A DNA stretch of 64,000 bases from positions 1 to 64,000 of the forward strand of contig PLXE01000105.1 of assembly GCA_003151335.1 (NCBI GenBank), written 5' to 3'. The position numbers and the translations under genes were made by a program. This document shows, in pieces, positions 23,312-27,942 of the stretch. The notes under the pieces were generated by a model. It was not told the origin of the DNA and ran no database searches. It was given only the letters and a program-made list of their open reading frames with translations. The number at the start of each line of letters is the position of its first letter. Position 1 is the first letter of the stretch. Origin of the DNA: Acidobacteriaceae bacterium. GTDB taxonomy: Bacteria; Acidobacteriota; Terriglobia; Terriglobales; Acidobacteriaceae.

Positions 23312-23998
23312 ATGACAAACCACCCAAGAAAATCGTGGATGAGGCGCGGTGTCGAAGCGGCCGTGTGCTCCGCCTTCATGAAGGCCTACTCCACCGTCAA
23401 GGTCAATCCCGAAAAGTATCTCGAACATCTGCGCATGGCTTACAACCTGCCTGCGGCGACGTATCAGGGTATGTATTCGGTCGATCCCGCCATGCTGGAC
23501 CATATCGCGGAACAGACCATCCGTGCTCACACGCGCCTGGCCACCGTCGAAGGCGCCGGTCTGGGTTTGGGCGGTATGTTTACCATGCTGCCCGATCTCG
23601 GCATCCTGGCGGCCATCACTTTGCGCATGATCCAGAAGCTCAGCCTGATCTACGGCTTCCCCTACAACACCGAGGAAGAAGAGGCGGAACTGTGGGTGGC
23701 CGCGGCCAGTGCGGCGGGCGTGGACATCAGCCGCGAAATACTGGAGAAGCAGCTCGTGTCTAAGTTTGTCCCCCGGGTCATTCAGCGGATCGCGGTAAGC
23801 GCCAGCGCGGAGATCGTGGAGAAGTGGGCAGCGCGTCTCATTCCGCTGGTCAGCTCCGCCATCGGGGCGGGTCTGAACCATTACTTCGTGAAGGTCTGGG
23901 GCGAGCGCGCCATCGGACACTTCCGCGAGAAGCATCTGCAAATGCGGGCGCAGCAGATCAACAGCAATGCCCGGCCCCCGGCTCTTCCAGCGAGTTAG
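23312..23998 (+). CDS. EcsC family protein
   Basis: A 228-residue protein of the EcsC family, named after the third gene of the Bacillus ecsABC locus. It has the Gly-rich hydrophobic segment typical of the family (about residues 83-100, GAGLGLGGMFTMLPDLG), several amphipathic helices, and a second hydrophobic Gly/Ala-rich stretch near the C-terminus (LIPLVSSAIGAGLN). The biochemical role of the family is poorly understood. The ATG at 23312 is chosen; the frame is open far upstream, but only as antisense to rnj. The next gene starts 34 bp downstream on the same strand. Confidence 0.8.
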   Translation: MTNHPRKSWMRRGVEAAVCSAFMKAYSTVKVNPEKYLEHLRMAYNLPAATYQGMYSVDPAMLDHIAEQTIRAHTRLATVEGAGLGLGGMFTMLPDLGILAAITLRMIQKLSLIYGFPYNTEEEEAELWVAAASAAGVDISREILEKQLVSKFVPRVIQRIAVSASAEIVEKWAARLIPLVSSAIGAGLNHYFVKVWGERAIGHFREKHLQMRAQQINSNARPPALPAS

Positions 23999-24032
23999 CA
24001 TCCGCCTTAGAATCACCTCTGGAACCGCAGTG

Positions 24033-24929
24033 ATGGAGAGACCCAGCCCAAGCCGCCGCTTCGAAGTTCTGTTCGATAACGCCGAACCGAGCCTCATTTC
24101 GGATGACGCCTACGCGCCCTACGGCAACTTCGGCTTCCCACCTCCTCCCGCCGGCCGCCCCTGGATCTACAGCAACTTCGTGCAGTCGCTTGACGGCATC
24201 ACCACACTACTGGGCAAGCACGGCTCCGGCGGCGAGATCTCGCAGTCGCCGGAAGACCGCTGGCTGATGGACCTGTTGCGCGCTCACGCCGACGGCCTGC
24301 TGATGGGAATGAACACCCTGCTGGAGGAGCAGCGCATTCGCGGGCCCGAGAGCCGGGGCATCGTCTTCCAGGTCGCCGACCCGCAGCTGCGCAAGCTGCG
24401 TGACCGTCTGGGCAAAGGACGCGAGCGCAACATCTTCGTGACGCGCGCGGTTGATCTCGACCTGTCGCGGCACAAAGTTTTCGATGGCGATGTGGTGGAC
24501 GCGGCGATCCTTACTTCTCCAGCCGGGGCTGAACGCTTGCGCGCGCAGGGCCCTCCTCCGCATGTCGCCGTCGTCGCCGCCGGCGAAGGCGAAACCTTTG
24601 ATTTGCCACGCGCCATCGGCAAGCTGCGCGAGGAGCTGGGCGTGAAGTATCTGCTGTGCGAAGGCGGGCCAACTCTCTACGGCAGTCTGGCGCGTGCCGA
24701 TCTGGTGGATGAAAAATTCATGACCGTCTCGCCGATCGAGGTGGGGCAAGTGGTCCCCCCCGAGCAGGAGCGCCTTGCCAGCGAGCAAACCACTTCGCTG
24801 TTGCTACGTCCCACGGTCTTCGGCGGGCCGGGATATACCAGGGACAACTTGACGCGCTGGACTTGGCTGAGTTGCCGTAAGGCCGGTGACCATCTGTTCA
24901 GTCGCTACCGGCGGAAAGGCAGGGGCTAG
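24033..24929 (+). CDS. RibD C-terminal-domain reductase
   Basis: A 298-residue NADPH-dependent reductase of the RibD C-terminal/dihydrofolate-reductase-like fold. The core is recognisable: SNFVQSLDGITT at the substrate site, ADGLLMGMNTLLEE, and the cofactor-binding CEGGPTLYGSL near the C-terminus. Homologs reduce 5-amino-6-ribosylaminouracil phosphate in riboflavin synthesis or related pyrimidines. There is no deaminase domain and no other rib gene nearby, so the actual substrate is uncertain. It lies downstream of the EcsC-like gene and converges on the peroxiredoxin gene with only three bases between stops. Confidence 0.82.
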   Translation: MERPSPSRRFEVLFDNAEPSLISDDAYAPYGNFGFPPPPAGRPWIYSNFVQSLDGITTLLGKHGSGGEISQSPEDRWLMDLLRAHADGLLMGMNTLLEEQRIRGPESRGIVFQVADPQLRKLRDRLGKGRERNIFVTRAVDLDLSRHKVFDGDVVDAAILTSPAGAERLRAQGPPPHVAVVAAGEGETFDLPRAIGKLREELGVKYLLCEGGPTLYGSLARADLVDEKFMTVSPIEVGQVVPPEQERLASEQTTSLLLRPTVFGGPGYTRDNLTRWTWLSCRKAGDHLFSRYRRKGRG

Positions 24930-24932
24930 GGG

Positions 24933-25544
24933 TCAGGGACTCTGCTGCTCATGCGCTCTTGGCTGGCGCAAGCCGAGGTGCAGCGCGTTGCGGATGGCGC
25001 GCAAGAACGTGGCCAGGTTGGGAATCAGATGCTTGCGGCGTGTTGGCATTGTGTCCTTCTGTCCCTGTAGCATTTTCACAATCTCCGCCGCCGGAACCCG
25101 AGCGCTAACCCCGTCCACCGAGACGAAGCGCACACTGCGATCGGGCGCCAGGATGAATACCGCTGGCTTGGCAATGCCTCCCTTTTCGTTCGGGTTGTAA
25201 ATGTCCCATTCCTGCACGACGCGGCGCTCCCTGTCGGACAGGATGGGGAACGGCAGCCGAAGTTGCCGCCGCACCGCCTCCGACTTCTCCGGGGCATCCA
25301 CGGAAACAGCCACCAGGCTGGCTCCGGCCTCACGAATAGCTTGGTGCTGCTCGCGATAATCCGCCAACTGGCGAAGACAAAACGGTCACCAATGGCCGCG
25401 ATAGAACAGCAGAACCAGCGGACCGCCGACCGCCATATCCGATAACCGCAGTGCCCCGCCGGTGGAGTCTGGAAGCTCAAAATCCGGTGCTTGCTGACCC
25501 ATTTGGGGCAGTCTACCGTGCCTTGGCGGCGTTGGAGTCGTCAT
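24933..25544 (-). CDS. Peroxiredoxin-like protein with in-frame UGA, probable selenoprotein
   Basis: One continuous frame of 203 residues containing a single TGA at codon 53 (25386-25388). The sequence around it is FYRGHW-TGA-PFC, exactly where AhpC/TSA-type (PRX-like 2) thioredoxin-fold proteins have a CPxC redox motif. C56 is the resolving position. Downstream the frame continues in register with normal family features (LVAVSVDAPEKSEA, FPILSDRERRV). The 6-bp stem and AGUU loop beginning 10 bases after the TGA match the general form of bacterial SECIS elements. I therefore read codon 53 as selenocysteine. The alternative is a Cys-to-stop nonsense mutation. It follows the M28 peptidase gene by 71 bp. 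Start ATG 25544 or 25502. Confidence 0.72.
25360..25375 (-). promoter_or_regulatory. Candidate bacterial SECIS hairpin
   Basis: On the coding strand TTCGCC-AGTT-GGCGGA folds into a 6-bp stem (one G-U pair) with a 4-base loop that has G at its second position. The loop begins 16 bases after the in-frame TGA. Distance, stem length and loop G fit the general description of bacterial selenocysteine insertion elements. Confidence 0.6.
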
Positions 25545-25614: not shown

Positions 25615-27882
25615 TTACTTCGCTCTCTCCAGCAATTCCGCGGCGCGGTTGATGGCATCCGTCAGCAATTGCAACTGCTGCTGCATGGTCGGCAGGTCTT
25701 TCTTGTCGATGGCCTCATTCACTCCCGGAATGACCACCGCGGCATACCCGGTATATTCGCCCGGCGCATAGATCGCATGTCTGAACCACGGACGGTCGGG
25801 CAGACCGTCGATGAGGAATGCACGTTCGGTGTTGCGCAGAATCAGGTTCATGCCTCCTGGATCTCCCAGCGGCTTGTTCTGCAATTGCAACACGGCGGCC
25901 CCGGCTTTCTCCAAGCGCGCCGCCGCTTTCGAAGCTTCGGCAAACGACGGCGCCTGTTCGCCGAAAGCCCTCTTTGCCTTGGGCTCGGCAGCCTTCAAGT
26001 AGTCTGCAATCTCTTTGCCGTAGTCCTGAAAATTGAAAGGCAACACGTCGGCGGAGGCGATGCGCATAACTTCCAGTCCATAGACACGCGCCATCTGCTG
26101 CTCATAGACAAATGTGGGATCGCCAAACTTGGTGAACCAGGCGAAGTTGTCGAAGGCCGAATGATAGACACCGTATGGCCCGCGCGAGCCAATGTCGGCG
26201 GAAGGCACACCCAGGTGCTGCAGGAAGGCGGTGTAGTCGGAACCGCTGCCGAGATTGCCGACGCGAACATCGTGCTGCACCGGGGCTGCCGGTTCGGCTG
26301 CCGGAGCACTCGAGGATTCAGGCTCCGGCGGCTTGCGACGCTCCTGCTCTTTCTTCTCAGCGGTGGCCTTCCACTGATCGTAAACGCTGCCGCCTTTCGG
26401 ACTGGGCACGGACTTGGCCACCTCGCGCAGGTACTGCTTCAAACTTGGCACCGACGAAGCGCCGAAGTCGGGACCGGCAACGGCCACGTCCATGTTGAAG
26501 TAGGCGACGGCCCGGCTGAGTTCCTTGGCGTGCTGCTCGGCAAACTCGGTTGAGCCGATCAGGCCCTCCTCCTCCGCATCCCAACTGGCGAAAACGATGG
26601 TGCGCTTGGGCCGCCATCCGGTCTTGAGCAACTGCCCCACCCCGTGCACCGCTTCCAATTGCGCGGCGGTGCCGCTGCTGGGATCTACCGCGCCGTACAC
26701 CCAGGCATCGCGATGATTGCCCGTGACGACCCACTCGTCGGGAAGCCGCGATCCGCGCACCATGCCGATCACGTCGTAGATGGTGACGAACTGATAGTCC
26801 TGCTTCAGCGCCATGTGAACCTTCACCGGCCCCGGGCCGACGTGATAGGTGAAGGGCAACGCACCCTGCCATTCGCGCGGCGACTCCGGGCCGCCCAGGT
26901 TGGCCAGGATGGGCGTGGCGTCGGCATAGGAGAGCGGAGTGGTCGGGACCTTCGGCATGTCGGTGGCGCTCTCGGGCGCGATGCGCTTGCTGTCGGGCAG
27001 ATCGGGCACCGAGGCAATCCCCGGCGTGGTGGGATCGCCGGGATAGCGGAACAGGTATTGGATGGAACCGCGCTGCACCGCGGTATCGGGGCGCCACGGC
27101 CCCTTGGGATACTTGTCGCCCTTGAAATAGCCGTCGTCCCAGGGATCGGAGTAGATGATGACGCCCGCCGCTCCGTACTGCTCCGCGACAAAGGTTTTCA
27201 CCCCGCGAAAGTTCTCTCCGTAGCGAACGATGACGATCTTGCCCTTCACCTCAACGCCCATCTCCTGCAGCTTCTTGAAGTCCTCCAGACGGCCATAGTT
27301 GGCGTACACGACATCGGCGGTGACGTCGCCCGACGGCGAGAATGCGTTGTACGCCGGCAGAATGCGCGGGTCGTCCTGGAAGGGATCGTCGCTGACATGC
27401 TCGGGCGATGGGCCGATCATGGTGACACCCTTGGGCGCAACCACCTCGACCTTGATGTCGAGAGGCAAATTCATCCAGACCTTGTACTGCTGGATGTAGG
27501 CATCCAGCCCGGCGGCCTTGTATTTCTCCAAAACGTACTCCGCCGTCTTCAGGTCTTCGGGCGATCCCGCAACGTGGGGCGCGGAGGTCAGAAATTGCAG
27601 ATGCTCCCTGGCCAACTGCGGGTCGGGCACCGCCAGAAATGTCTTCTCCGCTTTCAACTCAGGGCCGGGATCACGAAATCCGAATATCGCGGTAGGCGGT
27701 GTGAATGGCCCAGCCTGAGATTTCTCCTGAGTGGGAACCAGCGGTGAATAGAAGAGAGCACAACCGAGCACAGCGATGCAGAAACGGATCAAATCGATAC
27801 CCTCGAAGGAATTGTAGCGGGCTTTCGACATCGATGAGAGATCGTAGATGGTTCCATTCTGGGAAAACTCGGAGATGCTCAT
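25615..27882 (-). CDS. M28 metallopeptidase (glutamate carboxypeptidase II-like)
   Basis: A 755-residue exported zinc peptidase with the GCPII layout: signal or anchor near the N-terminus, a catalytic domain interrupted by a PA domain (about 160-310), and a C-terminal transferrin-receptor-like dimerisation domain. Zinc ligands and catalytic residues are visible in TGNHRDAWVYGAVDPSSG, WDAEEEGLIGS (catalytic Glu, zinc Glu), YFNMDVAV and YHSAFDNF. Such enzymes remove C-terminal acidic or other residues from peptides. An ATG at 27831 is an alternative start that would give a more typical signal peptide. It is divergent from the PEP-CTERM gene (60 bp) and upstream of the peroxiredoxin gene. Confidence 0.9.
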   Translation of the reverse strand: MSISEFSQNGTIYDLSSMSKARYNSFEGIDLIRFCIAVLGCALFYSPLVPTQEKSQAGPFTPPTAIFGFRDPGPELKAEKTFLAVPDPQLAREHLQFLTSAPHVAGSPEDLKTAEYVLEKYKAAGLDAYIQQYKVWMNLPLDIKVEVVAPKGVTMIGPSPEHVSDDPFQDDPRILPAYNAFSPSGDVTADVVYANYGRLEDFKKLQEMGVEVKGKIVIVRYGENFRGVKTFVAEQYGAAGVIIYSDPWDDGYFKGDKYPKGPWRPDTAVQRGSIQYLFRYPGDPTTPGIASVPDLPDSKRIAPESATDMPKVPTTPLSYADATPILANLGGPESPREWQGALPFTYHVGPGPVKVHMALKQDYQFVTIYDVIGMVRGSRLPDEWVVTGNHRDAWVYGAVDPSSGTAAQLEAVHGVGQLLKTGWRPKRTIVFASWDAEEEGLIGSTEFAEQHAKELSRAVAYFNMDVAVAGPDFGASSVPSLKQYLREVAKSVPSPKGGSVYDQWKATAEKKEQERRKPPEPESSSAPAAEPAAPVQHDVRVGNLGSGSDYTAFLQHLGVPSADIGSRGPYGVYHSAFDNFAWFTKFGDPTFVYEQQMARVYGLEVMRIASADVLPFNFQDYGKEIADYLKAAEPKAKRAFGEQAPSFAEASKAAARLEKAGAAVLQLQNKPLGDPGGMNLILRNTERAFLIDGLPDRPWFRHAIYAPGEYTGYAAVVIPGVNEAIDKKDLPTMQQQLQLLTDAINRAAELLERAK

Positions 27883-27942
27883 CACTTTGGCGCCACTCTT
27901 TTCAGCCAGACCGTGGTAAATTCCTGCTGAACGGAGTTGAAC

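Follow-up and report, generated by a model that had tools for sequence, protein, structure and literature searches.

The locus and its reading frame

The window (the whole stretch of 64,000 nucleotides analysed here) carries on its minus strand a gene of 203 codons that is interrupted by one in-frame TGA. The features of the locus are the following.

25615 to 27885, minus strand: upstream open reading frame on the same strand, M28 peptidase with PA and TFR dimerisation domains (context only)
24933 to 25544, minus strand: gene of a UxxC peroxiredoxin-like selenoprotein, 203 codons, ATG at 25544-25542, final stop TGA at 24935-24933, AhpC-TSA domain (PF00578)
25386 to 25388, minus strand: in-frame UGA at codon 53, probable selenocysteine (Sec) codon, judged from TGA in homologues and Sec machinery in the genome
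25377 to 25379, minus strand: TGT codon of Cys56, the UxxC partner of Sec53, facing the peroxidatic Cys of peroxiredoxins
25360 to 25375, minus strand: predicted bacterial SECIS element, judged from frozen synonymous sites and compensated pairs
25164 to 25166, minus strand: CCA codon of Pro127, aligned with the Arg of peroxiredoxins and with the second Pro of the ResA PLPTTF stretch
23967 to 24929, plus strand: convergent downstream open reading frame with a RibD C-terminal domain (context only)

The minus strand from 25544 to 24936 is a single open frame except for the TGA at codon 53 (25388-25386), which lies in the context GHW-U-PFC (WUPFC) with the Sec-x-x-Cys motif present. An earlier note on this DNA had described a frame open save for a TGA at codon 53 in GHW-TGA-PFC without giving a strand; the description is borne out, and the strand is minus. 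A mechanical list of open reading frames splits the gene into one frame ending at the UGA and a separate frame of 144 amino acids beyond it, and contains no plus-strand frame spanning 24933-25544. The protein matches AhpC-TSA (PF00578) with 111.5 bits against a cut-off of 26. None of the 16 NCBIfam models listed for it is at or over its cut-off: the match to peroxi_PrxU is weak (41.6 bits, cut-off 270), and the model for the SelL-related redox protein, NF040769, gives 45 bits, below the cut-off of 120.

Codon 53 in related genes

A phylogenetic tree of 97 homologues has UGA at codon 53 in 31 rows (the window gene included), Cys in 64 and Asp in 2. The tree was built from a quick search with column 53 omitted, and leaves out duplicate loci, the fragment L079 that lacks codon 53, the paralogues L001, L002, L003, L008, L030 and L033, and rows with E above 1e-16. 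Altogether TGA was found at codon 53 in 38 loci, 32 of them distinct (one, L030, represents a paralogous family). The alignment of the in-frame UGA with the Cys of homologues, as proposed earlier, thus holds for 64 Cys rows and 31 UGA rows among the 97.

The window gene is found in a group of 24 rows that all have UGA (SH-aLRT 94, not starred). The branching of six further UGA rows, in the tree's other half, is poorly resolved, and L051 is the lone UGA row in a starred set of 20, the others having Cys (17) or Asp (2). The labels UGA, Cys and Asp require 5 changes on the tree compared with 28.4 in shuffles, a count that is blind to gain versus loss.

A homologue at 1e-20 was found in 74 of 200 genomes from the same order, and 18 of the 74 have the UGA form; the codon was read directly in all 18 and is TGA at codon 53. 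A search of the phylum gave matches at 1e-24 in 8 of 396 genomes and four additional UGA genomes, and the absences mean little because at most seven candidates were scored per genome. In a scan of public genomes, from which the best 80 of 122 relatives were kept, the 11 loci that cover codon 53 with at least 61% identity (L066-L076) are all from acidobacterial assemblies and all have TGA. The remaining covering loci among these 80 (L077, L078, L080-L145) have TGC or TGT and come from Thermodesulfobacteriota, Chloroflexota, Cyanobacteriota, Bacteroidota, Pseudomonadota, Bacillota and other phyla. Because only the best 80 of 122 were kept, and because one scan pattern had Cys at residue 53 and so favours Cys genes, the numbers of Cys and UGA loci should not be taken as frequencies.

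Some sequences deviate at the motif. L051 (G080:C125:14978-15292) has its UGA inside a Cys/Asp clade of the wider family and a different hairpin, and is likely to be a separate switch between Cys and Sec. In L063 and L065 (genomes G084 and G136) the Sec53 codon is GAC, giving WDPYC, so that the first redox residue is replaced and the gene kept. L077, from a Desulfobacteraceae assembly, is the mirror case with Cys at 53 and Asp instead of Cys56.

Selection downstream of the UGA

The frame 3' of the UGA is under purifying selection. Compared with the closest relative, L037, pN is 0.075 and pS 0.283 over codons 54-160, and the 78 pairs of 13 orthologues have a median pN/pS of 0.31 and a highest value of 0.58 over codons 62-160. 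Constraint is looser over codons 161-198. Apart from codon 53, no stop occurs where the 32 distinct UGA rows are aligned, and the final stops of the 13 orthologues are TAG, TAA or TGA. An apparent extra TAA in L044 was considered as a sign of decay and rejected, as it is the final stop of L044 itself. The decay in relatives that the earlier note had named as evidence against a selenoprotein was therefore not seen.

The hairpin after codon 53

The UGA is followed by the hairpin UUCGCC-AGUU-GGCGGA (25375-25360), with a stem of 6 bp and an AGUU loop that starts 16 nt after the UGA, a geometry as first described. According to the available text of PMC13188914, a bacterial SECIS has a loop of 3-9 nt, a stem of 4-16 bp, a G in the first two loop positions, a spacing of 16-37 nt and a minimum free energy of at most -7.5 kcal/mol. 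The loop, stem, G position and spacing of the window hairpin are all within these limits. Its minimum free energy is -7.3 kcal/mol for the bare 16 nt, slightly above the energy limit, which is reached only when flanking sequence is included: -8.1 in the 30 nt after the UGA and -11.6 in 49 nt with the UGA.

The argument that such a hairpin would not be expected by chance does not hold for the single sequence and was dropped: of the 1841 TGA triplets on both strands of the window, 7.2% have after them a bSECIS-like hairpin of equal or greater stability, and the 49-nt stretch does not fold better than shuffled sequences (z -0.57). Conservation and covariation carry the case instead. Among 13 close orthologues there are 57 degenerate columns with a conserved amino acid (or stop), and only six of these are written with one codon throughout: F47, the UGA, R58, Q59, L60 and A61. 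The probability of four of the five frozen columns other than the UGA falling on 58-61 is 1.4e-5, and none of 2000 within-gene shuffles of synonymous codons reproduced the frozen codons 58-61. On average 5.92 of the 6 pairs are formed, compared with a shuffled mean of 3.88 and a maximum of 4.69.

Over the 23 sequences of alignment A1 (the 24-row UGA group with L048, near-identical to L046, omitted), 98.6% of cells pair, and at most 68% do so when the partner strand is slid. None of 500 shuffles reached the covariation score. Of the five measures, two were weaker: 17 of 500 shuffles reached the number of pairs changed on both sides and 179 of 500 the number of pair types. A G-C pair has become A-U in L044 and L047, where His replaces Arg and Val replaces Ala together, and a U-A pair has become G-C in L046 and L049. 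The covariation evidence is thin, with two compensated pairs in two near-relative sequences each, and each pair may be one event because its two sequences are closely related in the tree. Outside the main group, L051 and L152 reach -7.5 in a contiguous-stem scan, and the other five of these seven UGA rows (L147, L148, L150, L151 and L153) have no hairpin at or below -7.5 in the same scan.

The position of the UGA codon, the conservation of this codon and the conservation of the hairpin are far beyond chance. A nonsense mutation in a decaying gene, or an assembly error, as a stop interrupting the frame in a draft assembly might suggest, is scarcely credible given that 31 homologues, drawn from many independent assemblies, have TGA at this codon, and given the purifying selection past it, the aligned parts free of further stops and the frozen codons of the hairpin.

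Selenocysteine machinery and the reading of UGA

The genes selA, selB, selC and selD, to which the earlier note had tied its reading, are all present in the genome searched (4.65 Mb, 121 contigs). The tRNA-Sec gene (selC) is at C107:7786-7879 (66.6 bits, anticodon UCA), selA is on contig C71 (E 9e-168), selB on C23 (398 bits) and selD on C41 (370 bits). The selD match has a single TGA inside it, at a UxxK site; the listed selD frame also crosses another TGA, at codon 4, which is probably 5' of the real start.

Among the 18 genomes of the order that have the UGA form, selA is found in 17, compared with 16 of the 56 whose homologues are all non-UGA (Fisher p 7e-7, with no correction for kinship). 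A tRNA-Sec was found at 1e-9 in 19 of 22 UGA genomes. G019 (82% complete, UGA form) gave neither selA at 1e-40 nor tRNA-Sec at 1e-9, and two more UGA genomes, G023 (73% complete) and G100 (100% complete), gave selA and no tRNA-Sec at 1e-9.

It is very improbable that the UGA encodes a standard amino acid, either Trp or Cys through a tRNA-Cys with a UCA anticodon. Such tRNAs exist elsewhere, including selC* in some Deltaproteobacteria (PMC7609411, in the portion of that paper available). In the window, however, UGA terminates 15 of the 34 mechanically chosen open reading frames of at least 200 amino acids, and the genome has the selA/selB/selD set. Furthermore, tRNA-Sec alone has a UCA anticodon among the tRNAs found (44 matches to the general model and tRNA-Sec), tRNA-Trp having CCA and tRNA-Cys GCA, in a list that is incomplete (150 of 157 candidates scored, tRNA-Tyr absent). 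The interrupted gene is real and very probably that of a selenoprotein, and on the sequence evidence the UGA at codon 53 is in all probability decoded as selenocysteine, with insertion in the cell inferred.

The genome also contains a tRNA with a UAU anticodon and a long variable arm (L198 57-147, minus strand; G000:C24:23708-23796), called tRNA-Ile by ARAGORN. A comparable allo-tRNA(UAU) from Edaphobacter is reported in the available part of PMC7609411.

Fold and active site

The AlphaFold (AF2) model has a pLDDT of 83.5, with block means of at least 93 over residues 11-160 except for 80 at 141-150. In Foldseek and VIA-align 2 comparisons the highest-ranked structures are Bcp/PrxQ, AhpE and other peroxiredoxins, and the best PDB match, BcpB (Z 24.7, 1.9 A over 152 residues), shares its rank with the rows that follow. 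The predicted fold is that of a peroxiredoxin.

A classical peroxiredoxin has a PxxxTxxC motif and a conserved Arg, and Pro, Thr/Ser, Cys and Arg are visible in the aligned PDB peroxiredoxin rows. In sequence alignments, Arg49, Sec53, Cys56 and Pro127 face the Pro, Ser/Thr, peroxidatic Cys and Arg of Bcp-type peroxiredoxins. The classical set is thus not found in the window protein, which has R49, U53 and P127 in these places and keeps only Cys56. Alignment A2, with 28 of the 32 distinct UGA rows (L030, L044, L048 and L153 omitted) and 11 of 83 Cys-codon loci, has R49 in 27/28, P127 in 25/28 (Ala in 3) and Cys56 in 28/28 UGA rows, and over all rows Arg49 is kept in 38/39 and Pro127 in 34/39.

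The UGA does fall on the first residue of the motif shared with Cys56. It is not at the peroxidatic Cys of true peroxiredoxins; it is three residues earlier, at Thr/Ser. The proposed name UxxC selenoperoxiredoxin is right as to UxxC and fold. With the classical Pro-Thr-Arg set missing, it names a fold rather than a demonstrated activity. Cys56 is the only Cys of the window protein, so the redox centre would be Sec53 with Cys56, or intermolecular.

Within Sec decoding, the protein might still be a peroxiredoxin of the classical type in which Cys56 is the peroxidatic and Sec53 the resolving residue, in line with the peroxiredoxin fold and with the place of Cys56 opposite the peroxidatic Cys. This is unlikely, since the Pro, Thr and Arg of the peroxiredoxin site are replaced throughout almost all UGA rows and the nucleophile of thioredoxin-type sites is usually the first residue of the CxxC turn. 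With Arg49, Sec53 and Pro127 in place of Pro, Thr and Arg, the site resembles that of thioredoxin or ResA in a peroxiredoxin scaffold. The CxxC of ResA faces UxxC and its PLPTTF stretch faces the Pro127 stretch, although structure comparison puts Bcp/PrxQ, AhpE and other peroxiredoxins on top. The resemblance favours reduction of disulfides by a thiol (selenol), or of hydroperoxides in a broad sense, over classical peroxiredoxin catalysis, and a thioredoxin-like mechanism is reasonably probable for the window protein.

The best reading is a putative selenol-based oxidoreductase that would cycle through a Sec53-Cys56 selenenylsulfide. From the AGUU hairpin, whose loop starts 16 nt after the UGA, bound SelB would bring Sec-tRNA(UCA) to codon 53, and this delivery would result in a protein of 203 residues rather than a stub of 52. 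Sec53, the likely attacking nucleophile, would react with a disulfide or a peroxide and then join Cys56 in the selenenylsulfide, to be reduced by thioredoxin or a donor like it.

No redox partner was linked to the gene by its genomic neighbourhood (unannotated open reading frames from 19 loci, the window's own region accounting for two, with flanks of up to about 3 kb in relatives). Among UGA loci, the M28 peptidase and RibD-domain neighbours are found only at the window's copy, L067, L068 and L069/L146. The neighbourhood was rejected as a clue to the substrate; the other recurring frames overlap the gene or are common to two or three near relatives.

Relation to known selenoproteins

The earlier note had called the gene a probable new selenoprotein. 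As a kind it is not new: in the available parts of these sources, UxxC Prx-like selenoproteins are listed in 2005 from the Sargasso Sea (PMC1088965), the GOS data have 225 'Prx-like 1' UxxC sequences (PMC2398784), and a 2026 selenoprotein table has a Prx-like thiol:disulfide oxidoreductase (PF00578, UxxC/UxxU; PMC13188914), so the kind has been known since at least 2005. What stands is a new branch. Three families with four selenoproteins are counted for Acidobacteria in the accessible text of PMC1794560, and three selenoproteins for Occallatibacter riparius in that of PMC12013277, in both cases without their names. A literature search of open-licence papers, without supplements, which besides those cited here covered PMC9312934 and PMC3514251, found no published report naming this acidobacterial branch, and the branch seems to be uncatalogued.

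The Prx-like thiol:disulfide oxidoreductases, as presented in the available sections of PMC13188914 and PMC1088965, share the AhpC-TSA domain, Sec as the first residue of UxxC and Cys homologues with CxxC. The listed UxxC/UxxU representative is WP_010940744.1. The window's branch, which may be a sub-branch apart from it, has FYRG-x-W-U-P-F-C with Pro127, and its AGUU hairpin keeps a constant distance of 16 nt. The peroxiredoxin-like UxxS selenoprotein of cd02970 likewise has Sec first in its motif (PMC13188914, available part). Its second motif residue is Ser, in contrast to Cys in the window protein. Both presumably belong to the same wide Prx-like2 family. Sec-peroxiredoxins of the PrxU type (TxxU) are in the same Pfam family, but there Sec is at the peroxidatic Cys, and in the window protein it is three residues earlier.

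The chances appear evenly balanced that the gene represents a distinct, uncatalogued acidobacterial family of selenoenzymes with a peroxiredoxin fold, in which the peroxiredoxin site set has been traded for a selenol-based, thioredoxin-like U53-x-x-C56 and Pro127. In such a family Sec would have been kept across two families of the order, the AGUU SECIS would be locked so that the joint change of Arg/Ala to His/Val preserves a base pair, and the codon would have been converted between Cys and Sec more than once (L051).

Other selenoprotein candidates and implications

The genome has a second UxxC Prx-like selenoprotein candidate, L030 (G000:C28:6383-6910, minus strand), which is SelL-related (NF040769, 130 bits, cut-off 120) and has a UGA at codon 42 with an AGUU-loop hairpin 25 nt downstream. 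Its family was found at 1e-20 in 14 of 200 genomes of the order, with one TGA within the match in 14/14. Two TxxU peroxiredoxin genes, L001 (G000:C74:32195-32578) and L002 (G000:C1:51818-52189), have an in-frame TGA at the peroxidatic position; no hairpin was found in them by the same kind of contiguous-stem scan.

This soil acidobacterium thus has several candidate redox selenoproteins. Gene callers that stop at UGA cut a gene of this kind in two. The use of Sec in place of Cys probably makes a sharper redox enzyme, and UGA, TGC and TGT at one codon, together with a strongly constrained SECIS, provide a clean natural set for asking why Sec is kept.
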